Program-made: the position numbers and the translations under genes
The notes under the pieces: model-generated
Told to the model about the DNA's origin: nothing
Seen by the model: the letters and a program-made list of their open reading frames with translations, nothing else
Databases searched by the model: none
NCBI GenBank assembly: GCA_016213825.1
Contig: JACQZP010000027.1
Location: 124,001 to 188,000, forward strand
From: Acetobacterium woodii
Lineage (GTDB): Bacteria > Bacillota > Clostridia > Eubacteriales > Eubacteriaceae
Reading direction: 5' to 3'
DNA length: 64,000 nucleotides
Shown: piece after piece, positions 6,107 through 53,550 of the stretch
Layout: every line of letters begins with the position of its first letter
How positions within the stretch are numbered: position 1 is the first letter of the stretch

Positions 6107-6859
6107 ATGAATACAGATTTTATAAACTTAACAACAGAAAATCTTGTCAATGAGCATTTATGCTGCATTATCCGCAGTAAAAAGCCCCATCAAGGTATTG
6201 ACGCAAAGCGACAATGGCTTTCAGAGCGGCTCAATGAAGGTCATGTCTTTAGAAAGTTAAATGAAAAGGCGACGGTTTTTATTGAATATGCGCCGCTTGA
6301 AACCGCGTGGGTTCCGATAACGGGTGACAACTATTATTATCTGTATTGCTTATGGGTCTCTGGCAGTTATAAAGGAAAAGGATATGGGAAATCGTTGATT
6401 TCGTATTGTTTAGCTGATGCCAAAGAAAAGGGTAAATCCGGCCTTTGTATGCTCGGAGCAAAAAAACAAAAAGCCTGGCTTTCTGACCAATCATTTGTGA
6501 AGCGGTTTGGCTTTGAGGTTGTTGATACCACCGATAATGGATATGAATTGCTGGCACTTTCTTTTGACGGAACAACCCCAAAGTTCGCCCAAAATGTTAA
6601 AAACCAGGAAATTGAAAGCAAAGTGCTCACAATTTACTACGATATGCAATGCCCCTATGTCTATCAAAACATTGAGAAGATTAAACAGTATTGTGAAACA
6701 AATGACGTTCCGGTATCTTTAATGCAAGTGGATACGCTCCAAAAAGCAAAGCAATTGCCTTGCGTTTTTAATAACTGGGGGGTGTTTTATAAAGGGAAAT
6801 TTGAGACCGTGAATTTGTTAGACGTCGCCTACTTAAAGAGAATACTCAAATCAGGATGA
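6107..6859 (+). CDS. GNAT N-acetyltransferase with C-terminal YoaP domain
   Basis: 250 residues. An N-terminal GNAT fold with the acetyl-CoA loop GSYKGKGYGKSLI (about residues 85-97) is followed by a YoaP-like C-terminal domain (from about residue 175) carrying DMQCPYVYQNIEKI and the WGVFYKGKFETVNLL end. Length matches the YoaP family. Its acceptor is unknown. Its last codons and stop lie exactly where similarity to the selO tail begins (CAGGATGATT, also found near 16003), so the stop codon may have been contributed by that duplicated DNA. The 176 bases upstream hold no gene I can recognise. Confidence 0.85.
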   Translation: MNTDFINLTTENLVNEHLCCIIRSKKPHQGIDAKRQWLSERLNEGHVFRKLNEKATVFIEYAPLETAWVPITGDNYYYLYCLWVSGSYKGKGYGKSLISYCLADAKEKGKSGLCMLGAKKQKAWLSDQSFVKRFGFEVVDTTDNGYELLALSFDGTTPKFAQNVKNQEIESKVLTIYYDMQCPYVYQNIEKIKQYCETNDVPVSLMQVDTLQKAKQLPCVFNNWGVFYKGKFETVNLLDVAYLKRILKSG

Positions 6860-7085
6860 TTATTAAGCCCTTGCAGCGATTATAAGAAGTCCTTCTAATA
6901 ACCATATGATTACAATTCGCTTAACCTAGGACAATGACACCACCGGAATCGTTGAGTAGTCCTTATAAGACGTATTGTGGGACGTGATTTTCAAATAAAG
7001 CGCTATTTAAAACAAACATGACGTGTGGATCATGAAATTTCCCCATGGCATAGCCACGCTATGTAGTTGAACGGGCTCTGCAGCA
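6852..7085 (+). pseudogene. Decayed duplicate of the selO 3' end and its downstream flank
   Basis: From CCCTTGCAG at 6868 to the TGA near 6986 this matches the last 40 or so codons of the intact selO gene at 14657-16132, including shared runs ATTACAATTCGCTTAA, GACACCACCGGAATCGT and TATTGTGGGACGTGA. The reading frame is broken by substitutions and indels. Similarity goes on past the stop (AAAACAAACAT; ATGTAGTT block near 7060), so non-coding flank was copied too. It is a relic, not a gene. Confidence 0.85.
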
Positions 7086-7154
7086 TGAACATAGGAACAA
7101 GTTACCCACATCAGAAAAACATAGGCAAAAAAGCGAAATAATTACCCGCGTTTA

Positions 7155-7183
7155 TTGCGATGGGGAAGAACTACGCTTATAAT
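7155..7183 (+). promoter_or_regulatory. Promoter of the Fic gene
   Basis: TTGCGA (7155-7160), 17-base spacer, perfect TATAAT (7178-7183), about 32 bases before the start codon. Confidence 0.6.
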
Positions 7184-7214
7184 AGGAATAACTAAAGGTT
7201 TAGGAGTTGAAGAA

Positions 7215-8300
7215 ATGAGTGCTTCGCTAAAAAAACTACCGCCTGCTATTGAACTTGAGACTAAAATAGTATTAAAGCAATTAACCCGTGCCCATCGAGC
7301 CCTGGCGGAACTCAAAGGCTTTGCTGAGATGATACCGAATAAGAATATTTTGATCAATGCAGTGACAATCATTGAAGCAAAAAACAGCTCGGAAATAGAA
7401 AATATCATCACCACCCATGATGAATTATTTAGAGCAATGAGTGGAGAAAACGATCAGAATCCTGATGCAAAAGAAGTTGTGAATTATCGGTCGGCACTTT
7501 GGCATGGGTACAAATTGGTTAAAGACAACGGTTTTTTGTCAACGAATATGATCATTGAAGTGCAAGGGCTGATTGAACTGAATCGTGCCGGCATTCGGAA
7601 ATTGCCAGGTACTGTGCTAAAAAATGAAGCAACTGGTGAAATCGTTTATACGCCGCCGATGGGCGAACAGGAAATTGTAGGTCTTTTATCTAATTTAGAA
7701 CAATACATTAATATGGTAGCGGCTGATGATCCCATTGATCCCCTTGTCAAGCTGGCAGTCATTCATTATCAATTTGAGTCGATTCATCCTTTTTATGATG
7801 GCAATGGAAGGACTGGCCGAATCATTAATGTTTTGTATTTAGTGTTGCAGAAACTTTTAGATAGCCCGATTCTATATTTGAGTAAATATATTATCCGAAA
7901 TAAAGCAACTTACTATCGGTTACTCCAGGAAGTACGAGTTAAAGAAAACTGGGAAGAATGGATTTTATTTATCCTCAAAGGAATCGAAGAAACAGCGATT
8001 GAAACGCTGATATTAGTGAAAGAAATCAATAAACTGATGGAAAATACAGCAGAAGCGTTAAAGGAAAGACTGCCAAAAGTATATTCTAAAGAGCTGGTAA
8101 ATTTGATCTTTTATGAATTTTACACCAAAATTACATACATTGAAGAAGGACTAAAGATCTCAAGAAAGACGGCCGCAAAGTACTTATCAGATTTGGAAAC
8201 AGAGGGATTTTTAGCATCGGAAAAAATAGGACGTGAACGTATTTATCTGAATAAAAGCTTGTTTGAGATTGTCAAAAATTCCGAAAAAATATTCAAGTGA
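7215..8300 (+). CDS. Fic-domain AMP-transferase with self-inhibitory helix
   Basis: 361 residues. The Fic core motif HPFYDGNGRTGR (about residues 191-202) is complete, with catalytic His and the Asp/Asn/Arg nucleotide-binding residues. An N-terminal helix carries SSEIEN (about 58-63), which fits the (S/T)xxxE(G/N) inhibitory motif of class II Fic proteins, so activity is probably autoinhibited. The C-terminus holds a winged-helix-like segment (LKISRKTAAKYLSDLETEGFL). The start at 7215 is chosen for the AGGAGTTGAAG site; the frame is open 60 bases further up. Family role: transfer of AMP to a hydroxyl side chain of a protein. No antitoxin gene is adjacent, in line with the built-in inhibitor. 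Confidence 0.92.
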   Translation: MSASLKKLPPAIELETKIVLKQLTRAHRALAELKGFAEMIPNKNILINAVTIIEAKNSSEIENIITTHDELFRAMSGENDQNPDAKEVVNYRSALWHGYKLVKDNGFLSTNMIIEVQGLIELNRAGIRKLPGTVLKNEATGEIVYTPPMGEQEIVGLLSNLEQYINMVAADDPIDPLVKLAVIHYQFESIHPFYDGNGRTGRIINVLYLVLQKLLDSPILYLSKYIIRNKATYYRLLQEVRVKENWEEWILFILKGIEETAIETLILVKEINKLMENTAEALKERLPKVYSKELVNLIFYEFYTKITYIEEGLKISRKTAAKYLSDLETEGFLASEKIGRERIYLNKSLFEIVKNSEKIFK

Positions 8301-9966: not shown

Positions 9967-11964
9967 TTATTTCCCGCTTTCCGACCGGATTGTTTCAATG
10001 ATATTCTGCTTTTGCAGGCGATGGGCGGCATAGCGGGTAGTGCTCCAGGTGATCAGAAATACGGCCAGTACGCACAGCACGATGGCAAGCCACGGCGATG
10101 CATACGGAATGGGAAACATCGATCGAATCGGTAAATTTATAAAAATGCTCACGATAATTCCAACGGGCAGGCCGTACATGAGCGCTTTCATCGAACATAA
10201 AACGCTCTCGAGGTTCAGCATCTGCTTCAATCCTGCCGCTGTCATGCCCACACTCTGTAAAACGGCAAATTCACGGGAGCGCATCCGTACATTGGTGGAC
10301 ATTGTACTGATCACATTGGTAACCCCGATTAGCATGAGAAGCACGACAAAGCTGTACATAAAAATCGAGGCCAGAACAATGGCGATGTTCATGACTTTCA
10401 TGTAGTCGTCTATTTTATAGACTCGCGTATTAAACCCGGACTCCATATAAGAGGCATCCGTATTTTCGGGGAAGGTCTGTGCCATCACGTCGCTTGCGTA
10501 CGTGATAAAACCTGGCACATCAGAGGGGGCGGAATACCAGGAGTAGCCACGAACCTCGGCCTGCGGCACAATCAAACGAACCGGATTCGTATTAGGGTAA
10601 AAAAGCTCCTTTGGCATGTCGGCCTGCGTCAAGATGCCCTGTATCGACGTTTCATAGCTACTTCCGTCCGCTTTCACAAGCGTAATGGCTTTTATTTGGG
10701 GCGAAAACGGCACCAGGTCAACCTTTGTTCCGTTGTCGTTATAGCTGTAGTGGTTGAGCAAAATGGTGGAGCCGAAAGAGACACCGGCCTTTTCGCAAAG
10801 CGCGGCATAATGGGTATCATCCAAAACAATCATCTCCACAGGAAGTTCCGGTTTGTTCAGCTGGTCAGCAGCCGCTAATACGCTCTGCATTGGTGTAGAA
10901 ATAAGTTCTCCAGGCAAAATGGTTTCATAGGTGTCAAGATCGTTACCCATGCCGAAGATCTCTGTGTTGTCGAATTCTTCCAGCTTTTGGGTAATGATGT
11001 TTCCCTGTTCACTACTGATGGGATGGTTATAAACGGTTTCCTTCTTACCGGTCGCTTCGTTCATACGCCTGTCGTAAGCAGAGGTGTACTCTGTCAAAAC
11101 GGTTTGATCAATATCGAGCCGGATATAGGCTTGGATGGCGTTTGCCTGACCGCTCAGTTCCCCGAGGCTGATAAACAATATGACACCGGCGGCCAGCGCA
11201 ATCACGGTCGAACGAAAATTTCGGCGGTTACGCTTGATGTTTTTGGCGGCCAGCGTTCCCTCAATGCCAAAAATCCGCTCTACCAAAGGATTGGTACGCA
11301 CCTGTTTGCGGTCAATTCTTATTTCTCCGGTGCCGCGGATACAATCAATGGCGGCAGCCTTCGCCGCCTTATGCGCCGGAAGCCATGCGGAAAGCAGCAC
11401 TGTCAAAAAGCAAACTGCCGCCGCCAGCAGCAGGGCTTTCCAGGATACAACAAACGAAAGCGACAGCGTAATCTCGTTCATCATGATGTGAACCAAACTG
11501 TTCAGATCATCCAGGAAATGATTTGCGACACCAATTCCAACAAAGGTCAAGAGCAACCCCGCAAGGATGCCCAGCGGAATGCCGATTGCCGAAAGCAGCA
11601 TACTTTCGTACATAACGGTGTCAGTAATTTGTTTTTTGGTGGCACCGACGCATTTCAAAACGCCAAACTGCGTCACGCGCTCACCGGCGCTGACACGAAA
11701 AACATTGGAGATCACGATGATCGCCATGGAAAGGATGATGACACCGAAAAGAATTGCCGGAACAAGCAGCAGAGCCACATAGCTGTTGCCGTATTCGCCA
11801 TAATTCTCGCCTAAAAAGCTGACCAGCATGGCATTGCCACTGGCGAAAAAACTGCATACAGCGGTAATCAGTGCCGTGGCAAGGGTGATGGCGATCAAGG
11901 CACCGATGGTGCGGGAACGATTGATTTTCAGCTGGCTGTATGCCAGCTTTGCCGTGATTCTCAT
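9967..11964 (-). CDS. FtsX-type ABC permease of module A (peptide-resistance type)
   Basis: 665 residues. Membrane helices are seen near residues 20-42, 84-108, 120-148, 170-195 and 253-272, then a long soluble stretch (about 275-535), then three C-terminal helices. The FtsX/MacB-core sequences GERVTQFGVLKCVGATKKQI and REFAVLQSVGMTAAGLKQM are clear. Compared with the paralogous permease at 25954-28542 it lacks the roughly 190-residue extracellular domain after the first helix, keeping only about 20 residues there. Its ATG overlaps the ATPase stop as ATGA. It should handle cell-envelope peptides such as bacitracin-like or cationic peptides. Confidence 0.87.
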   Translation of the reverse strand: MRITAKLAYSQLKINRSRTIGALIAITLATALITAVCSFFASGNAMLVSFLGENYGEYGNSYVALLLVPAILFGVIILSMAIIVISNVFRVSAGERVTQFGVLKCVGATKKQITDTVMYESMLLSAIGIPLGILAGLLLTFVGIGVANHFLDDLNSLVHIMMNEITLSLSFVVSWKALLLAAAVCFLTVLLSAWLPAHKAAKAAAIDCIRGTGEIRIDRKQVRTNPLVERIFGIEGTLAAKNIKRNRRNFRSTVIALAAGVILFISLGELSGQANAIQAYIRLDIDQTVLTEYTSAYDRRMNEATGKKETVYNHPISSEQGNIITQKLEEFDNTEIFGMGNDLDTYETILPGELISTPMQSVLAAADQLNKPELPVEMIVLDDTHYAALCEKAGVSFGSTILLNHYSYNDNGTKVDLVPFSPQIKAITLVKADGSSYETSIQGILTQADMPKELFYPNTNPVRLIVPQAEVRGYSWYSAPSDVPGFITYASDVMAQTFPENTDASYMESGFNTRVYKIDDYMKVMNIAIVLASIFMYSFVVLLMLIGVTNVISTMSTNVRMRSREFAVLQSVGMTAAGLKQMLNLESVLCSMKALMYGLPVGIIVSIFINLPIRSMFPIPYASPWLAIVLCVLAVFLITWSTTRYAAHRLQKQNIIETIRSESGK

Positions 11965-12644
11965 GCCTTCATCACCTCGTCTGAAAGAATTTGACCGTCA
12001 CCGAGGGTGATGATTCGGTCTGCCTGCAAGGCTATTCTTTCATCATGGGTAATGATCAGCAGCGTCTGATTGCTGCGTTTGTTCGCAAGCTTTAAAAGGT
12101 CGATAATCTCGCGGCTTGCTTTGCTGTCCAGATTGCCCGTAGGTTCATCGGCAAGAATAAAAGCCGGGTCGTTAATCAGGGCTCTGCCCACTGACACCCG
12201 CTGTTGCTGGCCGCCGGACAATTCGCTGGGCAGATGCGTTGCGCGCTCCGAAAGGCCAATCGTTTCGAGAATCGAAGAAAGCTTATCCGGATCCGGCTTG
12301 CGGTGATCCAGCAGGCGCGGTAGCATAATGTTTTCCGCTGTCGTTAGGGTGGGGATCAGGTTATAGAACTGATAGATCATCCCAATGTTTCGGCGGCGGA
12401 AGATCGCAAGTTCGCTCTCATTCAGGTTGTAGATTTCGTTGCCGTCGATTTTCACACTTCCGGAGGTGGGATGGTCAATTCCACCGATCAAATTCATGAG
12501 CGTAGATTTACCCGAACCGGATGCCCCTATGATTGCAACAAATTCCCCCTTGTTCATGCTGAAGCTTACATGATCCAAGGCGGTCACGCTGGTGTCGCCC
12601 TTGCCGTATGTTTTTGTAAGGCTGTTGATCTCTAATATTGCCAT
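11961..12644 (-). CDS. ABC transporter ATP-binding protein of module A (MacB/LolD-like)
   Basis: 227 residues. Walker [11 protein letters not shown] loop, signature [15 protein letters not shown], Walker [13 protein letters not shown] and switch His ITHDERIA are all present. This is the subfamily that pairs with FtsX-like permeases. It has its own promoter region separate from the kinase/regulator genes, with phased GTGAC half-sites upstream (12692-12707). About 71% of the visible motifs match the paralogue at 28539-29222 closely by eye, though no alignment was computed. Confidence 0.92.
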
Positions 12645-12675
12645 TTTTCTGTCCTCCTGTAATTTTCATACCCAC

Positions 12676-12707
12676 ATTGTAGCAGACAAAAGTGACTGCA
12701 GCGTGAC
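12676..12707 (-). promoter_or_regulatory. Promoter of the module A ABC genes with phased regulator half-sites
   Basis: Minus-strand -10 TACAAT (12681-12676), preceded by 10 bases and then two GTCAC half-sites (plus-strand GTGAC at 12692-12696 and 12703-12707) spaced by 6 bases, that is 11 bases start to start. The half-sites sit where a -35 box would be, the usual layout for activation by OmpR-type regulators. The same spacing is found at 29255-29286. Confidence 0.65.
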
Positions 12708-12735
12708 TACGGGACATTTTAAAATGACAATCTAT

Positions 12736-13560
12736 TCACTTGAAAAACTTTATGGTGAAGGTGGCGCCGGTTTCCTTGCCGCCGCCGTCAATTTCAATAT
12801 CTCCGTTTTGGCCGCGCACAATGGAAAGCGCAAGCGGCAGCCCGATGCCATACCCGTTCTCGTTTTGGGAATATTCAAACCGCTTAAAAAGGGCGGGATA
12901 CTTTTGTTTCGAAATTCCTTTGCCACAGTCGGTCACGGAAATCCAGCGGTAAATGGGATTGATACCGCTGTTTACGATGATCTTACTGTTCGCCGACGAA
13001 TATTCCGAGGCGTTTTTCAGCAGGTTTGTCAGGGCTTCGGCGGTCCAGCGGTGATCGCAAAACAGAGTGGTATCGTTGGCCAGTTCGACTGTTTGATTTT
13101 TCACATCGAGCAAGACTTCCAATGGCTGCTGGGCTTTCTTTAACAGGTCGCCCGCTGAAATTTCTGCCATCGAAAATTCGACTGCGCCGGAATCCAGCCG
13201 TGCCATTTTCAGTAGTGTTGCAACAAGCCATTCCATGCGGGTGAGGCTAATTTTGATGTTGGCGACAAATTCTTCCTGCTTATCGGCAGGTGCATTTTCC
13301 AGTAAATCTGCCATAATCAGCATGGAGGTAAGGGGTGTTTTCAGCTGGTGCGAAATATCGGCAAGATAGTCCGCCAGTAAATCCCGATCACGCTGTGCCG
13401 TGTTCCGCTGTTCGTTGTTGATGCGCACAAGGGTGTTGATGTCATTTTTCAAGATGCTCCATAGGCCCTCGCGGTTGTCTCGAAAATCGACTTCTTTGCC
13501 ATCAATGGCTTTGCGAATATCATCCGATAATGCTGTGATCTCCTGTTTTTTAATCAGCAC
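12736..13560 (-). CDS. Histidine kinase of module A, lacking membrane helices
   Basis: About 274 residues. DHp helix with phospho-accepting His in LADISHQLKTPLTS, N box (LTNLLKNASEYS), G boxes (DCGKGIS, GYGIGLPLALSIV). There is no hydrophobic segment at the N-terminus: the protein begins with LIKKQEITALSDDIRKAI, which aligns with the region after the second helix of the full-length paralogue at 29305-30303. Start is a GTG at 13560 behind AGGGGGG (a TTG at 13569 is also possible); both lie inside the end of the response-regulator gene. It is either a soluble kinase or one that lost its sensor half. Confidence 0.85.
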   Translation of the reverse strand: MLIKKQEITALSDDIRKAIDGKEVDFRDNREGLWSILKNDINTLVRINNEQRNTAQRDRDLLADYLADISHQLKTPLTSMLIMADLLENAPADKQEEFVANIKISLTRMEWLVATLLKMARLDSGAVEFSMAEISAGDLLKKAQQPLEVLLDVKNQTVELANDTTLFCDHRWTAEALTNLLKNASEYSSANSKIIVNSGINPIYRWISVTDCGKGISKQKYPALFKRFEYSQNENGYGIGLPLALSIVRGQNGDIEIDGGGKETGATFTIKFFK

Positions 13561-46617: not shown

Positions 46618-46653
46618 AAGAAGTTTAAGAATGGATACATTCTTAAACTTCTT
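46618..46653. terminator. Terminator shared by the FMN-binding and MFS genes
   Basis: AAGAAGTTTAAGAATG pairs perfectly (16 bases) with 46638-46653 around GATA. The stop codon of the minus-strand MFS gene lies inside the right arm. Confidence 0.85.
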
Positions 46654-47839
46654 TTAAAATATAGTGCGATTGTAATTTCGAGAATAGCAGGAGTGAGACA
46701 ACAATCACACAAGCGGCTACACCATAGAGAAGGCCCGGGCTGAATGAATAGATAGCCGCAGCAGCCAGCGGAACAAGAACTCGGTAAACTGATTGCAAGC
46801 TTTGACTGACACCCTGTAATTTTCCTTGATTGCTTTCGTCAACAGCCTGTGAAAGCCGTCCATTGTAGGATGGATCAAACAAACCTTCGCCCAAGGTAAT
46901 ACTCATAACTCCCGCTATAATAAGTACTGGCGACGCGATCTGTGCGCTTAGCGTGATCAGCGCCAAGCCCAGCGCCAGTCCCAAAAGACCAGCAATGCCA
47001 ATAGCTCGATCACTGAACTTTTTAAGAAGGAGCGGTAATAACACCGCCCGGGAAAGAATATCACAGGCGCCAATAAGCGTAAACAAACCACCGATCAGTG
47101 CCGGACCCCAGGCGAAAATATCTTTTAAAAAGATGCTGAAATTAAATTGATAGATTTCTAATCCCACATAGAAGAATCCGCCGACGATGATAAGCGCTTT
47201 GGCCGCTTTTAGGGTGAAAATATCTTTGATCTGACCGAAAATATTAAAACTTTTTATGGAAAAATGGGTTGATCGTTTTTCCGGTGACAATGATTCCGGC
47301 AGAAAAAAATAGGTGCAAATAACCGAGAGAAACATAATGCCGGCAGTAACGAAAAACGGCAGCGTAATTGAAATGGCGCCAAGCGGACCGCCCAGCGCAG
47401 GCCCAATCATGCATCCGATGCCCATGGTAGCACCGATATAGCCAAACCATTTGGTGCGCTCATGGGGCGCGGTGCTATCAGCAATGTAAGCAAACAAGGT
47501 GCTGATATTGCCCGCAGTCAATCCATCAATGATCCGACCCAGAAACAGCACCCACAGCGCCCCACCGATCCCAAACAGAATATATCCGATCACCGATCCC
47601 AATAAACTGATGATTAAAATCTTTTTTCTGCCGTAGCGATCGCTTAAGGCCCCAAGTATCGGTGCCGCCAAAAAAGTGCAGGCGGCAAAAACCGATGCCA
47701 GGGCGCTCATTCCGATAACAATTTGCGAAGCGGGCAAGTAGCTGCCAAGTAAAAACGGCAATAGCGGGATCACCACCGTCATTCCGACACCATTCATCAA
47801 CACAATTCCCACTGTGATCCACAAAAAATTTTTACGCAT
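46643..47839 (-). CDS. MFS transporter, TetA-like drug efflux pump
   Basis: 398 residues, twelve hydrophobic segments. The loop 2-3 signature GALSDRYGRKKILI and the TetA-like GRIIDGLTAGNISTLFAYIAD and GPALGGPLG are clear. Expected to export drugs by proton antiport. The promoter carries GGAAAC-type inverted repeats that suit the MarR protein encoded just upstream. Confidence 0.9.
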   Translation of the reverse strand: MRKNFLWITVGIVLMNGVGMTVVIPLLPFLLGSYLPASQIVIGMSALASVFAACTFLAAPILGALSDRYGRKKILIISLLGSVIGYILFGIGGALWVLFLGRIIDGLTAGNISTLFAYIADSTAPHERTKWFGYIGATMGIGCMIGPALGGPLGAISITLPFFVTAGIMFLSVICTYFFLPESLSPEKRSTHFSIKSFNIFGQIKDIFTLKAAKALIIVGGFFYVGLEIYQFNFSIFLKDIFAWGPALIGGLFTLIGACDILSRAVLLPLLLKKFSDRAIGIAGLLGLALGLALITLSAQIASPVLIIAGVMSITLGEGLFDPSYNGRLSQAVDESNQGKLQGVSQSLQSVYRVLVPLAAAAIYSFSPGLLYGVAACVIVVSLLLFSKLQSHYILKEV

Positions 47840-48001: not shown

Positions 48002-48487
48002 TTATTCAAGATCATTTCGATTGGTTATATTGACACCTTGCTTCTTTATTTCGGTATCCAAATGCCGACGATACTTTTCCATGAAGCTAAGCATACTGTC
48101 AAATTGTGCCTCGGTTATGTCCTCAAAGACGGCTTTATCCCGCGCCTGAAACTCATCGTGTAAATCCTCATGGATTTTGTTAATTGCGTTCCCTTGCTCC
48201 GTCAGCCTAAAATAGATTTCTTTCTTATTATCCGGTTTCTGGTAGCTTTCGATAATGCCCTTTTCGACCATCTTCTTGGTTAGCTTACTGATGGCGCCCC
48301 TGGTCATATAAAAAGACTCGGCCAGTTTGGTCACGTTGGAATCGACATTGCTGCTAATGTATTCGATGCAATGTACTTCAGAAGACGTATAACCCTTAAG
48401 ACTATCTTCCATCTTAAACTTATTAAGCCAAACCAATTTGTTGTATATATCCCTGAAACCGATAATGATCTGTTCTTCTTTGTTCAT
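48002..48487 (-). CDS. MarR-family regulator
   Basis: 161 residues from the ATG at 48487, which follows GGGAGGA. Winged helix with VTKLAESFYMTRGAISKLTKKMVEKGIIESYQKPDNKKEIYFRLT. It should regulate the adjacent MFS pump. A terminator separates the two, so the pump has its own promoter. Confidence 0.9.
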   Translation of the reverse strand: MNKEEQIIIGFRDIYNKLVWLNKFKMEDSLKGYTSSEVHCIEYISSNVDSNVTKLAESFYMTRGAISKLTKKMVEKGIIESYQKPDNKKEIYFRLTEQGNAINKIHEDLHDEFQARDKAVFEDITEAQFDSMLSFMEKYRRHLDTEIKKQGVNITNRNDLE

Positions 48488-48583
48488 GGCCTGTCCTCCC
48501 ACCCGCTGGTGCATTAACATTATTATAGTAAACTTTTGTTTCGATTGCAACAAGGTTAGCTTTTTTAATCCCGGGATACCGCC

Positions 48584-48928
48584 TTATTTATCAGTTGCCT
48601 TTTTCATGGCTTGGTTAACTTTTTGGTCAACTGATTCTTGATAGATGTCAGCATATGTTTTTGAATCTTTGATGAGCTCGTCGCAGAAAGCGGCTACGTC
48701 ACTGCCGGTCACTTCAAGCACGCCTTTCCCCAGGGCTGCGCTTTCCTCAAAAAGGTCAACAATTCCTGATAGCAATTCCGTCCCTTCGGTTAGCTCAACC
48801 GGACCGACCTTAAAGAGATATTTTTGAATTTCTTCATAAACTATCTGATAATCCTGGGGGAGCGCTTTGACACGAGCCATATGTGCTCGCCACTCTTTTT
48901 TTCCTTCGATGATATCTTGTATTTTCAT
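48584..48928 (-). CDS. DUF1048 protein, copy 1
   Basis: 114 residues, all-helical by composition, with ALPQDYQIVYEEIQKYL and VTGSDVAAFCDELIKD. Related to the next gene upstream. AGGAGGC precedes the ATG. DUF1048 genes normally follow a PadR regulator, as here; function unknown. Confidence 0.85.
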   Translation of the reverse strand: MKIQDIIEGKKEWRAHMARVKALPQDYQIVYEEIQKYLFKVGPVELTEGTELLSGIVDLFEESAALGKGVLEVTGSDVAAFCDELIKDSKTYADIYQESVDQKVNQAMKKATDK

Positions 48929-48937
48929 TTTAGCCTC

Positions 48938-49285
48938 CTATTTAGCTAATTTTTTAGCGACATTATGGTTGAGTTGCTCGCGCCACTTGTCACGATAAGA
49001 TGTGGCCCCTTCGTCGCCGATCAGGGCTGAACAGAAGCCTTTGATATCGTCGCCCAAAACCTCCTGGACACTCTGACCGTCCGCCGCCGTTTCTTCGAGC
49101 AGGCCCAGCACACCGTCAAGAATTGGCATCAGGTTGCGACCAGTTAAATCGGAGTGGGGCCAGAGATTGGCTTTAATTTTTTCCCATGCCGCCTGATAAT
49201 CAGTCGGCAGCTTTTTGGCCCGCGATTCGAAAGATTTAAATTCTTTAGTCATGTCGCTGCCGGTAATTTGTTCCCAAAAGTTCAT
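48938..49285 (-). CDS. DUF1048 protein, copy 2
   Basis: 115 residues. KLPTDYQAAWEKIKANLW and VLGDDIKGFCSALIGDEG align with the neighbour copy, so this is a tandem duplication. Its ATG touches the PadR stop at 49285, indicating coupled translation. Confidence 0.87.
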   Translation of the reverse strand: MNFWEQITGSDMTKEFKSFESRAKKLPTDYQAAWEKIKANLWPHSDLTGRNLMPILDGVLGLLEETAADGQSVQEVLGDDIKGFCSALIGDEGATSYRDKWREQLNHNVAKKLAK

Positions 49286-49611
49286 TATTTATTCTCCTTT
49301 AACTCATTAATTTTTGCCGACACGAACGCCCATTTGTCCCAGAACTTCTGCAATTCTTGGCGCCCGGCGTCGTTGAGCACATAAAACTTGCGTGGCGGCC
49401 CAATATCAGACGGTTTTTTTTCGATATCGACAAGGTTTTTCTTCTCAAGCCGCACTAAAATGGTATAGACCGTTCCATCTACAACATCCGCGAAGCCGAG
49501 TGCATTTAATCGCCGCGTGATTTGATAGCCATAGGTTTCGCCGCCGCTAATAATTTCAAGGACGCAGCCCTCAAGCAGGCCTTTAAACATTTCTGTTAGA
49601 TTTTCCAGCAC
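49285..49611 (-). CDS. PadR-family regulator
   Basis: 108 residues from a GTG at 49611 behind GGAGGTG. ENLTEMFKGLLEGCVLEIIS, GETYGYQITRRLNALGF and VDGTVYTILVRLEKKNLVD are the PadR winged-helix signatures. It heads the PadR-DUF1048-DUF1048 operon. An imperfect inverted repeat (TGTGTTACT / AGTAATACACA) upstream at about 49633-49665 is a candidate operator. Confidence 0.92.
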   Translation of the reverse strand: MLENLTEMFKGLLEGCVLEIISGGETYGYQITRRLNALGFADVVDGTVYTILVRLEKKNLVDIEKKPSDIGPPRKFYVLNDAGRQELQKFWDKWAFVSAKINELKENK

Positions 49612-49665
49612 AATCACCTCCATGCTACTCTGTGTTACTTACTAAATCTATATAGTAATACACAA

Positions 49666-50025
49666 TAGCTGATTTGTCAATAGCGGTTTTCTGATATTGG
49701 ATAAAATACCGATGGTTAGCTTATCTAAATGAATTGGGAGCTTTTATGATTTAAAAATAAAACTTTGATAAAATTTGTTAATATATCATTTTTCTATTGT
49801 TCATAAAATGGGTAAAATTAATAATCTTTAATTCATGAATTTGCTAATTACTGGTGAAATCTCTTTTTGATATAGTTAAGCCAAGCAAAACATGAAAAGG
49901 ATTACACGAACGCAAGCGAAATTGTATTTGTGTTAAAAATGAACACGAGCAATCAGAAATCGCTGTGGGGTTCGGACATGTTTAGAAATGATGGGCAATG
50001 ACCCAAATTAAAAGGAGAAATTGAT
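49666..50025. other. Long intergenic region upstream of the PanB-like gene
   Basis: About 360 bases with no gene I can support. A+T-rich in the first half. AAAAGGAG lies just before 50026. No clear operator or riboswitch seen. Confidence 0.4.
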
Positions 50026-50931
50026 ATGTCAACTGAAAAAAGTAACGAAGTCGAAATCAGTAAAGAAGAAAAATCAGGTGTTAAAGCGTCCAAGATGAAA
50101 AAGGGACGGAAATCAATCGCATTTCTTCAAGAAAAGAAAGATAATGGCGAGAAGATTGTACAGATGTGTCCGGTCGACCGGGATAAGTATTTTGTCATGG
50201 CCGCAGAAATGGCCGACTGCGACATCTGTCGTTTGACAACACCCGGTGAGAACACTGAGATGCAGATGGCCAACGCAACCTGGAGAATCCGCGAAATCCG
50301 CGCGGCTGCTCAGATTATCCATATCAACTTTTATATGATGACTCCGACTTTTTGCTCCAAGGAAAAAGCACTGGAGTATGGTTCTATGTACATGGCCGAA
50401 GGGGCCGACTCGCTGCTGCCTATGGGCGTTAACAACGAAACCCTGAAATACATGGCGGATAACCATCTGGTCGTGTTTGGTCATGTCGGTGCGCTGTCCG
50501 GCTGGCAGACCAGCAAACATGGCGGCTACAAGCGCCTGGGCAAAACTGCGGAAGACGCTATGGAGGTCTTCCGGATGGCTTATGAGTATCAGGAAAACGG
50601 CATGATGGGCATGACCATCGAGCTGACACCCATCGAAGTCACCAATGCCATCGCCAAGAAGCTGAGCGTACCGGTCGTCTCCATCTGCGCTGGTGGTGCG
50701 GCTGACGGTTCAGAAATGGTCGACTTTGATACCTTCAACATGATGCCGACCCTGGCTGCTCATGCCAAGGTCTATGCTGACTTCTTTAAGTGGTCTGCGA
50801 CCGCATACGGCGGATGGGCCAATGATGTCCGGACGGGTGTATATCCGGAGGATAAGCACGGCTTCCACATGGATGAAAAGGAACTCGACATATTCTTGAA
50901 CCAGTTGGAACAAAAATACACCATCAGATAG
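50026..50931 (+). CDS. PanB-like (ketopantoate hydroxymethyltransferase fold) protein lacking the metal ligands
   Basis: 301 residues. After a charged 35-residue head it aligns by eye with PanB along its length: AFLQEKKDNGEKIV, GHVGALSGWQTSKHGGYKRLG, IELTPIEVTNAIAKKLSVPVVSICAGG, and the end GVYPEDKHGFHM. The residues that bind Mg2+ in PanB are changed: VGDS reads LTTPG, ADLPF reads NFYMM, and KIEGG reads LLPMG. The Glu near the second half (TPIEV) is kept. It is therefore a TIM-barrel relative with a different reaction, not pantothenate synthesis. It is followed by an SDR gene in the same direction. Confidence 0.75.
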   Translation: MSTEKSNEVEISKEEKSGVKASKMKKGRKSIAFLQEKKDNGEKIVQMCPVDRDKYFVMAAEMADCDICRLTTPGENTEMQMANATWRIREIRAAAQIIHINFYMMTPTFCSKEKALEYGSMYMAEGADSLLPMGVNNETLKYMADNHLVVFGHVGALSGWQTSKHGGYKRLGKTAEDAMEVFRMAYEYQENGMMGMTIELTPIEVTNAIAKKLSVPVVSICAGGAADGSEMVDFDTFNMMPTLAAHAKVYADFFKWSATAYGGWANDVRTGVYPEDKHGFHMDEKELDIFLNQLEQKYTIR

Positions 50932-51056
50932 TCTGACCGAGGATGTCTAGTAAGAATCTGGTTGGCGGATGGACAGCGCTGAATAAGGACCGTTCATCGG
51001 CTAATTAAAATAACGGTGTAAATAATCTAATGTGATAAGTTAAGGGAGACGATTTT

Positions 51057-51983
51057 ATGAAAATGGATGCCAACACAATATTAGCGATGGCGGAGAACAG
51101 CACAAAGCAAATTCGTAGTTTAACCGAGGTATTCGGCAAGGATCTTGCGGGCAAGGTAGCCATCGTAACTGGTGGTGCCACCGGGCTGGGCTATAGCGTC
51201 GTAAACCGGTTAGCCGAGGCTGGGGTGCGGGTGGTCATAGCATCGCGAAAAGAAATGACTGGACAGAAGGCCGAAGCTGAGTTTCGGGCCAGAGATTTTG
51301 AGGTAAAATGGTTCCAGACTGATGTCAGCAAGGTGTCTGACTGTTATGCTGCAGTTGATTTTGCGGTAGAGCAGTACGGCGGCGTTGATATTGTCGTTGC
51401 CAATGCGGCCGTATGGTCGATGTATTCATTTCTGGATATGCCGGAAGAGGCCTTTGATAATGTTCTCAACACCGATTTAAAAGGCGAATATTTCATTGCT
51501 CAGGCGGCTGCCCGGGTGATGGTTGAGCAGCAGACCAAGGGAAAAATTGTGTTTATTTCCTCGGTTGCTCATAAGGGATCTGACGCCGCTAAATTGGGCA
51601 CGATGACGCATTACAATGCGGCCAAGGGGGCAATTGTCAGTATGACGAAAGGAATTGCCAAGGAACTGCGACAATACGGCATCAGTGTCAACTGTGTCGC
51701 TCCCGGGGGAATGCTGACCGCCGGAGCCCTGACGAATGCTGCGGAAGCGGTTGGTCTTTATGGCCCGGAGTTTGCTGAGGAACGGGGTAAATATGGCCGG
51801 GAGACACCGATGGCGATGAATCCGGACGAGGTGGCCCTGGTGGTATTGGCAATGTGTACCGCCATGTCGGACTTTATTGTTGGCGAGACGATTGATGTGG
51901 ATGGTGGTTCCCTGCTCAGTTATCAGGCGAAGCCCTGGAGCTACACCGTAGCAGGCTGTATCCCTGGTCCGAAAGCGGAATGA
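51057..51983 (+). CDS. Short-chain dehydrogenase/reductase beside the PanB-like gene
   Basis: 308 residues. NAD(P)-binding TGGATGLGYSV, ANAAVWS in place of NNAG, catalytic Ser in FISSVAHKG, YNAAK with Tyr/Lys, and VDGGSLLS. A 25-residue N-terminal extension and a C-terminal tail (PWSYTVAGCIPGPKAE) are not usual for the family. GGGAGACG precedes the ATG. It lies 125 bases after the PanB-like gene, probably co-functional; substrate unknown. Confidence 0.88.
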   Translation: MKMDANTILAMAENSTKQIRSLTEVFGKDLAGKVAIVTGGATGLGYSVVNRLAEAGVRVVIASRKEMTGQKAEAEFRARDFEVKWFQTDVSKVSDCYAAVDFAVEQYGGVDIVVANAAVWSMYSFLDMPEEAFDNVLNTDLKGEYFIAQAAARVMVEQQTKGKIVFISSVAHKGSDAAKLGTMTHYNAAKGAIVSMTKGIAKELRQYGISVNCVAPGGMLTAGALTNAAEAVGLYGPEFAEERGKYGRETPMAMNPDEVALVVLAMCTAMSDFIVGETIDVDGGSLLSYQAKPWSYTVAGCIPGPKAE

Positions 51984-52033
51984 CCAGGCAGCCTGAACCC
52001 GGATTGATTCAATAATTGCGTTTATTTTAAAAT

Positions 52034-52084
52034 AATCCCCCCAGTGTAGCGATTCCTCTAAAGGGAGCTGACACTGGGGGGATT
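52034..52084. terminator. Terminator between SDR and LuxR-type genes
   Basis: AATCCCCCCAGTGT and ACACTGGGGGGATT form a 14-base perfect stem around a 23-base loop, followed by TTAT; serves the convergent genes. Confidence 0.82.
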
Positions 52085-52109
52085 TTATGAGTCGAAAATT
52101 TGATCTGCT

Positions 52110-52865
52110 TCAGCTCAGCAAGCGCACGAGCAGTTCCTGGAGGTTGGAAACATGCATTTTTTCATAAATGTGAGCGATGTGTTTATTGGTGGTGGACTGG
52201 GAGATATAAAGCGATTGACTGATGATCGCCGGGGAAATACCCTGGCATAGCAGATTGGCAATTTCGATCTCTCGGGCCGTCAGGTTGGTGGTTTCCCAGG
52301 AAATTTGATCCATCGCTTGTCGGCTTGTCTGCTGGCAGAAAAAATTCTTATGCAGGTTGTTTAACTGCGGAACCGCCAGAGACAGCGTCATAAACTCAGT
52401 ATCGGTGAAGTTTTCGTCTTTGGTTTTGTCCAGGGCAAATAAGGTTCGCGGTTTGCCGTTGATATCAAACAGTGCAAAACCAAGGGAGTATTTAACACCC
52501 CGGGGATGAATATAATTAGAAACAAACTCTGTAGTTGGCTCTTTTTTCCAGGCTCTGATATTGATGGTCGGTTTAGCTGGATTTTCCCGCAAGTTTTTGA
52601 CGAGACTATAATACCCATTTTTACTCTTGGAGTAGTATTCAAGGTACATGGTACTCCATTGTTTGTCAATATTATGCAAATACTGATTGCAGACCTTGCC
52701 ATTGCCATCCAGAAAATAGACAAGTGACTGGTCGAAGTCGCACAGTCCCCCAAGGCCAGACAGAATTTCAACGGAAAAAGCTTTCAATTCATGCACATTT
52801 CCACAGGAAATAGTAAAGTCATAAATTTTTTGCCAGGGCATATTCAATTTAGTATTCATTTTCAT
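52110..52865 (-). CDS. LuxR-type HTH regulator with GAF-like sensor domain
   Basis: 251 residues. C-terminal HTH NLTAREIEIANLLCQGISPAIISQSLYISQSTTNKHIAHIYEKMHV. The N-terminal 170 residues look like a GAF/PAS-type sensor (FDINGKPRTLFALDKTKDENFTDTEFMTLSLAVPQL). Convergent with the PanB-like/SDR genes and a candidate regulator of them. No dedicated promoter motif seen. Confidence 0.87.
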   Translation of the reverse strand: MKMNTKLNMPWQKIYDFTISCGNVHELKAFSVEILSGLGGLCDFDQSLVYFLDGNGKVCNQYLHNIDKQWSTMYLEYYSKSKNGYYSLVKNLRENPAKPTINIRAWKKEPTTEFVSNYIHPRGVKYSLGFALFDINGKPRTLFALDKTKDENFTDTEFMTLSLAVPQLNNLHKNFFCQQTSRQAMDQISWETTNLTAREIEIANLLCQGISPAIISQSLYISQSTTNKHIAHIYEKMHVSNLQELLVRLLS

Positions 52866-53145
52866 TCCCTCCGTGCTTGTGTCAGGAATCTCCCTTTCCT
52901 ATGGTCATTTCTTTATCACTATCGGTTTATAGTTGAATTTTAATGATAAAACACCATAAAGTCAAGGTATGTTGAGCGCAAAGATGGTATTTACGAAAAA
53001 CGTTTTCAGTAATAACGCTACAAATATTCAGTAAAAATGAATGTTATAGTCAATAGCGGGTATAATAAAAAAAACTTTACAAAAACAGAATGAGATATTT
53101 CTTGCAAATTAAGAAATCAAAAACAAGATTAGAAGGGAGAAAAGA

Positions 53146-53550
53146 ATGTCTAAACTTAGTTTAATTGAAGGTATTGGCGAAGCTTATGAGTTGAAATTGG
53201 AAGCCGCGGGCGTTAACTCGATCGAAGCACTGCTGGAGGCTTGCACCACCAAAAAAGGCCGGTCTCAACTGGCAGAAAAAACAGGGATTTCTGAAAAACT
53301 GATTTTAAAATGGGCAAATCATGCGGATTTAATCAGAATCAAAGGGATTGGCGGAGAGTATGCGGAATTGCTTGAAGCAGCAGGCGTTGATACGGTACCG
53401 GAATTGGCCACACGCAAAGCAGAAAATCTCTTCAAAAAATTGCAAGAAATCAATGATGCAAAAGAGCTTGTCAGAAAACTGCCGACTCAAGCGCAGGTGG
53501 AAGACTGGATAACCCAAGCGGCAGCGCTGCCACGGGTCTTGACGTATTAG
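53146..53550 (+). CDS. DUF4332 (helix-hairpin-helix) protein
   Basis: 134 residues. Two repeated helix-hairpin-helix-like units: LIEGIGEAYELKLEAAGVNSIEALL and RIKGIGGEYAELLEAAGVDTVPEL, then a helical tail. The family may bind DNA or act as an adaptor; function unknown. A TATAAT at 53061-53066 is a likely -10. GAAGGGAG precedes the ATG. Confidence 0.88.
   Translation: MSKLSLIEGIGEAYELKLEAAGVNSIEALLEACTTKKGRSQLAEKTGISEKLILKWANHADLIRIKGIGGEYAELLEAAGVDTVPELATRKAENLFKKLQEINDAKELVRKLPTQAQVEDWITQAAALPRVLTY

Follow-up and report, generated by a model that had tools for sequence, protein, structure and literature searches.

A PanB-fold protein without metal ligands, encoded beside a dehydrogenase and a LuxR-type regulator in Acetobacterium woodii, and its possible catabolic role

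We analysed a stretch of 64,000 nucleotides from Acetobacterium woodii (assembly GCA_016213825.1, contig JACQZP010000027.1, forward-strand positions 124,001 to 188,000; hereafter the window), in which three adjacent genes represent the minimal form of a gene module found in other bacteria as well. The first gene (50026..50931, + strand) encodes a 301-aa protein with the fold of PanB, the ketopantoate hydroxymethyltransferase (KPHMT), an assignment based on a match to Pfam family PF02548, the fold of an AlphaFold2 model, the ligand columns of an alignment and the position of the protein in a clade of its own. On the same strand, starting 125 bp further downstream, lies the gene of a 308-aa short-chain dehydrogenase/reductase (SDR) with N- and C-terminal extensions (51057..51983; Pfam adh_short, alignment and kept gene order), and convergent with it that of a 251-aa LuxR-type regulator with a GerE helix-turn-helix (52110..52865, - strand; Pfam GerE). 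The source genome (G000) measures 3.94 Mb and carries the locus on contig C16. Throughout, L-numbers denote loci and G-numbers genomes of the carriers of the PanB-like gene that were compared.

The PanB-like protein of the window matched the Pantoate_transf family (PF02548) with 123.8 bits (cut-off 28.7) and missed both curated PanB models (TIGR00222, 73.6 bits versus a cut-off of 207.55; NF001452, 74.7 versus 272), which are cleared by a canonical PanB encoded in locus L090 (293.8 and 325.4 bits). A first-pass annotation of this DNA had put forward an overlay of a predicted structure on PanB as a check, and the overlay agreed with the assignment. An AlphaFold2 model built with 22 sequences reached a mean predicted local distance difference test score (pLDDT) of 83, and its best matches in the PDB were solved PanB structures (3vav_B, VIA Z 29.0 over 239 residues with a root-mean-square deviation of 2.4; 1o68_B, 28.5; 1m3u_A, 27.8), followed among other folds by tryptophan synthase alpha (VIA Z 16.3).

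Active-site residues were compared in an alignment of 46 PanB-like and 14 canonical PanB sequences, the latter comprising the copy of the source genome, 12 copies from other carrier genomes and one located inside the L090 cluster. Loci L005, L017, L041, L044, L045, L046, L050 and L051 and sequences shorter than 256 or longer than 419 aa were excluded, and positions in PanB are given in the numbering of the canonical copy of the source genome. Roles were transferred by motif from Escherichia coli PanB, in which we take D45, D84 and E114 to bind the metal, S46 and K112 to bind the substrate and E181 to be the base. None of the 46 PanB-like sequences has Asp at D46 (V in 23, P in 8, T in 6, S in 4, A in 4, H in 1) or at D85 (Y in 31, V in 12, F in 3), Lys at K115 (L in 41, M in 4, N in 1) or Ser at S47 (a gap in 43, another residue in three), and E117 is replaced by Met in 45 and present as Glu in one (L042). 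The window protein itself has none of the metal ligands and neither the Lys nor the Ser that holds the oxo acid. E184 and H139 (E199 and H153 in the window protein), whose columns presumably correspond to the base Glu and the active-site His of PanB, are retained in all 46. A further set of residues is fixed in the PanB-like proteins and not in PanB, namely R69, N101, N146, W160, Q161, T162, YEYQE at 186-190, E204, E230 and H246. Given that the ligand losses are fixed across a clade, the pattern is not due to chance. These data confirm that the window protein has the PanB fold without the metal and oxo-acid ligands and with the base, the His, GHVG and the C-terminal YP..H motif kept, in line with the first-pass annotation, which had described a PanB pattern with GHVG and the C-terminal YP..H motif retained and all three Mg-binding motifs replaced.

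In a maximum-likelihood tree of the 60 aligned sequences (midpoint root, used for drawing only), the 46 PanB-like proteins were separated from the 14 canonical PanB with a support of 100/100, and the named sequences closest to the window protein were those of Acetobacterium. Identity between the PanB-like and the canonical proteins was 17-31%, as compared to a mean of 62% within the PanB-like set. The source genome carries canonical panBC elsewhere. No pantoate ligase gene (panC, PF02569) turned up in 17 of the 35 carrier genomes, draft bins among them; in the mapped PanB-like loci neither panC nor panD was recognised. The PanB-like family is rare and patchy: counting the source genome, it was present in seven of 40 genomes from the family, all of one genus, and in six of 391 sampled from the class (both E <= 1e-40), and in three of 398 sampled from the phylum (E <= 1e-60). 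A pattern scan of GTDB species genomes yielded 34 PanB-like loci, among them loci of Acetobacterium, Alkalibaculum, Alkalibacter, Sporosalibacterium, Acidaminobacter, Fusibacter, Paradesulfitobacterium, Moorella, Thermacetogenium, Lachnospiraceae, Oscillospiraceae, Mogibacterium and a Coriobacteriales bin. A tblastn search of plasmids returned 152 records, none of which covered 80% of the PanB-like query and all of which were below 60% identity; the 20 records listed were rhizobial, and 18 of these were annotated as panB.

Three of the loci showed peculiarities of their own. In Mogibacterium (L090), the canonical-type PanB (6840-7814; 325.4 bits versus 272) adjoins the PanB-like gene and is also neighboured by a Cyclase-family gene, an SDR and an alcohol dehydrogenase (ADH)-like gene, in a genome in which panC was not found. 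The locus of Clostridium ultunense (L017, 5430-10903) looks degenerate, with several partial and tandem copies of the PanB-like gene, among them a 591-aa open reading frame (ORF) that contains two copies, and 125-aa pieces in duplicate. In Acetobacterium sp. bin S2.10 (L041), the PanB-like ORF, adjoined by SDR and LuxR genes, matches the family over about 158 residues only; a full-length copy is present on a different contig of this assembly (L010).

For the neighbourhood analysis, genes were called with a codon-scored caller, clustered and labelled by BLAST to seed sequences; the calls at two GC-rich loci (L034, L082) still contain some likely antisense ORFs. The gene map left out L001-L004, L006, L007, L009 and L047-L049 (own locus, canonical panB, short duplicates), and L052-L078 (mostly repeats), L089 and L093-L109 lay outside it. 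From the count we further dropped L005, L010, L017, L034, L041, L044, L045, L046, L050, L051 and L090 as duplicate, very short, broken or degenerate; L010 (a 3.7-kb contig), L046 and L050 have no SDR, and the other dropped loci have one. Among the remaining 48 PanB-like entries, an SDR gene was present within 6 kb in 42, or in 41 of 47 if a gene entered twice (L032:3669 = L081:154) is counted once. Chance would place an SDR in about 3% of such neighbourhoods, based on the nine SDRs above the Pfam cut-off in the source genome. At least half of the flank was available for 43 entries, and 38 of them had the SDR. Of the entries without it (L020, L035, L040, L081:18597, L085 and L088), three (L020, L035, L088) are cut by contig ends, and at L081:18597 the stretch ends early, the overlapping L090 showing an SDR 3.1 kb downstream. 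A LuxR homologue was found within the same distance in 32 of the 48 entries, a protein with a trigger-factor C-terminal domain in 22, a GroEL-like protein and a major facilitator superfamily (MFS) transporter in 13 each, an unnamed family of about 72 aa in seven, an ADH in five and a VOC protein in four. The pairing with the SDR thus survives the genome-context survey suggested by the first-pass annotation, and the partnership with a LuxR-type regulator, which it had also proposed, is real.

The window SDR (Pfam adh_short, 154.9 bits; cut-off 26.6) carries the nucleotide-binding motif TGGATGLG (TGxxxGxG) and the active-site motif YNAAK (YxxxK). Its terminal extensions, already seen in the first-pass annotation, amount to about 28 additional residues at the N-terminus and 22 at the C-terminus, the latter being present in nine and absent from seven of the 16 other aligned sequences. 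In the LuxR-type protein, the C-terminal helix-turn-helix matched GerE (44.6 bits; cut-off 23.5), and the N-terminal part had no Pfam match at E 0.1; this protein probably senses the substrate of the module. Elsewhere the module is larger than in the window and includes the trigger-factor domain, the chaperonin, transporters, ADH and the VOC protein. In each of three trigger-factor members examined, Trigger_C was the sole trigger-factor domain to score above the Pfam threshold (80.5, 45.3 and 37.2 bits), and one member of the divergent GroEL-like family matched Cpn60 (190.5 bits, Pfam). The family of about 72 aa lies beside SDR and PanB-like genes at L036:7114-7329, L084:8083-8301 and L092:6877-7101; at the limits applied, neither Pfam nor NCBIfam gave a match for the L036 member, and Pfam gave none for the L092 member. 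Near the PanB-like gene of L092 (genome G102), an old-yellow-enzyme/BaiCD-type flavoenzyme is encoded (10952-12907; BaiCD 508 bits, cut-off 825).

Some of the larger loci contain genes of one-carbon (C1) metabolism dependent on tetrahydrofolate (THF). Since FchA (PF04961) was found in 36 of the 37 carrier genomes searched, its presence alone says little and its position is more telling. FchA lay within 10 kb of the PanB-like gene in six of 35 genomes (0.45 expected; simulated P 3e-6) and within 15 kb in seven (0.67 expected; P 4e-6), values that assume uniform placement, use positions copied by hand and are uncorrected for relatedness. If the related pair G434/G435 is counted once, the simulation gives a probability of 7.8e-5 for at least five genomes at 10 kb. 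The counts exclude two genomes with partial FchA hits (G447, G436) and two duplicate genomes (G003, G262). The distances were 3.3 kb (G426), 6.3 kb (G444), 6.9 kb (G446), 8.9 kb (G437), 9.1 kb (G435), 9.2 kb (G434) and 12.4 kb (G440). For canonical panB, used as a control, FchA was within 10 kb in none of 13 genomes and within 15 kb in one (G449). FolD, and mostly also Fhs, adjoin FchA near PanB-like genes, and five of the seven genomes have a second FchA elsewhere. Within the 6-kb range, FchA was found in two of the 48 entries, FolD in two, Fhs in one and the formate/nitrite transporter FNT in three.

At L079 (Fusibacter paucivorans) and L080 (from a related bin), SDR, MFS, ADH, Fhs, FchA, FolD and FNT genes follow each other on one strand with gaps of at most 101 bases; after a further 158-222 bases come genes for the S component of an ECF transporter and for a FolC-like Mur ligase. 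The PanB-like gene is itself followed, on its own strand, by a gene for a 5-formyl-THF cyclo-ligase; the Pfam names of this gene and of the genes in the run were confirmed for L079. In Mogibacterium (L081), Fhs, FchA, FolD and FNT are located between two PanB-like loci. At L014 the PanB-like and SDR genes are convergent with FNT, FchA and FolD (NCBIfam: FchA 192 bits, cut-off 275; fnt 258.7 bits, cut-off 232.3), and at L025 FolD, FchA, FolC-like and Fhs genes diverge from a LuxR-SDR-MFS-PanB-like array. The formate-THF ligase of L025 (4614-6326) appears as two ORFs of 112 and 435 aa, a split that lies either in the draft contig or in the genome. SHMT, Fhs, FchA and FolD also head the array formed by L104 and L028, and L032 and L092 have a GcvT-type protein at the PanB-like locus; both arrangements count in favour of a C1 link, although they bear on an alternative discussed below as well.

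In the PanB reaction, the alpha carbon of a 2-oxo acid and methylene-THF exchange a hydroxymethyl group. As the residues holding the oxo acid and the metal are gone, a ketone without an adjacent carboxylate appears the more likely substrate of the PanB-like protein. Pantoate or pantothenate as substrate was considered and seems unlikely, since that pocket is gone, and the first-pass suggestion of a 2-oxo acid is not supported. The kept base, the lost metal and carboxylate pocket, a ketone-forming SDR, transporters, a regulator and, at some loci, genes leading to formate and ATP are together best read as signs of a retro-hydroxymethyltransferase. We tentatively propose a catabolic module in which the PanB-like enzyme would act, free of metal, on a ketone made by the SDR and pass the released carbon to THF. 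The MFS transporter would import an alcohol, whose secondary hydroxyl the SDR (or ADH) would oxidise, giving a ketone next to a CH-CH2OH group. In the PanB-like enzyme, E199 would serve as general base and the fixed polar residues R69, N101, H153 and Q161 would stand in for the metal; the enzyme would run the PanB reaction backwards and cleave the C-CH2OH bond, the carbon ending up in methylene-THF or being released as formaldehyde. FolD, FchA and Fhs could convert methylene-THF to formate and ATP, with formate leaving through the formate channel; in Acetobacterium the hydroxymethyl carbon may instead join the Wood-Ljungdahl pathway. The trigger-factor domain and the GroEL-like protein probably assist folding of a PanB-like oligomer. 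According to passages of PMC7610986, PanB is capable of class II aldolase activity with formaldehyde.

Possible, but on balance doubtful, is the wider formulation of a metal-independent branch of the PanB superfamily that would work in reverse on carboxylate-free ketones and load the hydroxymethyl carbon of a plant-derived or polyol compound onto THF. Aryl-propanediol side chains of lignin or lignans are one lead to the substrate, and polyol-type compounds are another. The former comes from a second SDR type at some relatives, for which a coniferyl-alcohol dehydrogenase model was closest (172 bits; next model 82), and from the likeness to aerobic lignin-dimer pathways described below. The similarity of the ADH partners to threonine and inosose/polyol dehydrogenases, at scores under the cut-off, keeps polyol-type substrates in play and speaks against the phenylpropanoid lead.

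Several observations weigh against the proposed transfer to THF. The C1 link was seen in seven of 35 genomes, less than half, and is missing from the window's own genome, where the FchA genes are on other contigs; the simplifying assumptions of the distance statistics count on the same side. In L079 and L080 the PanB-like gene is not part of the run: some 3.5 kb separate it from the SDR end, it is read from the opposite strand, and genes for LuxR, a second ADH and a VOC protein intervene. In L014 and L025 the C1 genes are likewise on the strand opposite to the PanB-like gene. In the half containing strands 5-8, identity to PanB rises just slightly (30% versus 20%). Passages of PMC7770189 state that PanB requires a divalent metal for enolisation. 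The gene neighbourhood gives no direction, and the C1 genes could equally supply methylene-THF. The leads to the substrate are weak, the coniferyl-type SDR being absent from the window locus and its match lying below the cut-off (242 bits).

We regard it as unlikely, though worth weighing first among the alternatives, that the PanB-like protein makes or breaks a C-C or C-X bond without one-carbon transfer, for instance as a metal-free aldolase, retro-Claisen hydrolase or isomerase on the SDR-made ketone, the C1 genes then adjoining for substrate methyl groups taken by uroporphyrinogen decarboxylase (URO-D)-family or GcvT-like enzymes. Loss of the metal could signal such a new reaction, and most loci have no C1 genes in the stretch covered. 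Candidate methyl-transferring genes do occur: L104 and L028 together read SHMT-Fhs-FchA-FolD-MFS-URO-D-corrinoid-activator-like-GroEL-LuxR-SDR-SDR-TF-PanB-like (corrinoid-activator-like gene 332 bits, cut-off 800), L105 has two URO-D genes (Pfam), and L032 and L092 have a GcvT-type protein beside the module (GCV_T 131 and 145 bits). Yet the 17 genes of L079 hold a full C1-to-formate set with no methyltransferase-type gene recognised (Pfam for ten of them), and the base and His of hydroxymethyl chemistry are invariant. A third L105 gene, taken for URO-D by eye, was not confirmed by Pfam. Beside the GcvT-like gene, both L032 (11926-13203) and L092 (3675-4913) encode a protein of 412-425 aa; the L032 member had no Pfam or NCBIfam match, and a structure prediction of 425 residues (pLDDT 34) was not used.

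The opposite direction, in which the hydroxymethyl group of methylene-THF would be added to the ketone and the SDR would reduce the product in a biosynthetic or electron-sink role, strikes us as improbable. Passages of PMC7770189 describe PanB as running this way, the C1 genes are reversible, and the formate channel could import formate; against this, the sporadic accessory distribution, the several SDR types, the transporters and the local regulator look catabolic. A non-catalytic role, for example as a partner that binds a ligand for the LuxR regulator or as a scaffold for the SDR, would accord with the loss of the catalytic metal site in the members compared and is nonetheless very improbable, as invariant E199, H153, N101, R69 and Q161 and the high mean identity within the family suggest an active site. 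An ordinary PanB, or a decaying one, making ketopantoate, to which the PF02548 match and the fold might point, is scarcely credible and was rejected in view of the fixed ligand losses, the separate clade, the canonical panBC of the source genome and the panC pattern, some of the genomes concerned being drafts.

Among known systems, PanB/KPHMT (PF02548; 1m3u, 3vav, 1o68) shares with the PanB-like proteins the TIM barrel, base Glu, active-site His, GG[YF]K and the C-terminal [FY]P..H, and differs in the metal ligands, the oxo-acid Lys and Ser, the scores relative to the curated cut-offs and the clade. Serine hydroxymethyltransferase (SHMT) and the glycine cleavage T-protein also load THF with a one-carbon unit taken from an organic substrate; their folds and cofactors are different, and they act on amino acids. 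A likeness at the pathway level is offered by LdpA and PcfL, described in passages of PMC12997858 as aerobic C-gamma formaldehyde lyases of lignin dimers: there, too, stereoselective SDRs (LigD, LigL) act on the C-alpha alcohol or ketone, an enzyme removes the hydroxymethyl carbon, and the catabolic field includes THF enzymes (LigM, LigH), namely a THF-dependent demethylase and a formate-THF ligase. By the same passages LdpA differs in belonging to the NTF2 superfamily, in a proposed quinone methide route rather than a retro-aldol on a ketone, and in losing the carbon as formaldehyde; they name no PanB-fold member, and a substrate shared with the PanB-like proteins is our conjecture. PceT/RdhT, according to passages of PMC8905343 a dedicated trigger-factor-type chaperone for one enzyme in reductive dehalogenase operons, provides a parallel for a catabolic cluster with its own trigger-factor-type chaperone, whereas the PanB-like module passes Trigger_C only and no dehalogenase was recognised in the gene lists inspected.

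No description of a PanB-like catabolic cluster was found in our searches of the open-licence PMC literature, which is weak evidence of absence. What is found here is a conserved gene family and module, more than one odd gene, and apparently undescribed. The first-pass interpretation is thus supported in part: the metal-less PanB and its SDR and LuxR partners stand, an undescribed pathway is probably right, and the 2-oxo acid falls away. Since they match the PanB Pfam family, PanB-like genes are open to being mistaken for pantothenate biosynthesis genes, with wrong calls of vitamin prototrophy as a result. Were the C1 proposal true, it would reveal harvest of a hydroxymethyl carbon by certain acetogens and gut anaerobes, together with a PanB-type catalyst that needs no metal and could interest biocatalysis. 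It would also add an undescribed route by which one-carbon units reach the Wood-Ljungdahl and formate pathways, equipped with a regulator, a trigger-factor domain and a chaperonin of its own. The proposal predicts that a definable alcohol should give rise to methylene-THF when SDR, PanB-like protein and THF are combined.

Between the convergent SDR and LuxR genes, a strong hairpin (52034..52084; -34.1 kcal/mol, z -6.5 versus shuffles) is probably their shared terminator; it was not among the sites listed by a simple terminator scan. Scans of 49500-53200 were uninformative, with nine promoter-like sites (7.3 in shuffles) and three terminator-like sites (3.4 in shuffles). Upstream of the PanB-like gene, a block on the + strand (49843..49905) contains short stretches, GCTAATTAC, TCTTTTTGATATA and TGAAAAGG-TTACA, that are identical in an alignment of the upstream regions of five Acetobacterium loci, and is a candidate promoter or regulator site. 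Further upstream, an MFS transporter (46643-47839), for which the Tet(42) efflux model was closest (267.7 bits, far under the cut-off of 850), and a MarR-family regulator (48002-48553) form an efflux-like pair that was not confirmed as a resistance gene. Two tandem DUF1048 genes and a PadR regulator (Pfam) occupy 48584-49623, just upstream of the PanB-like gene, and have homologues at the equivalent place in A. dehalogenans (L013).

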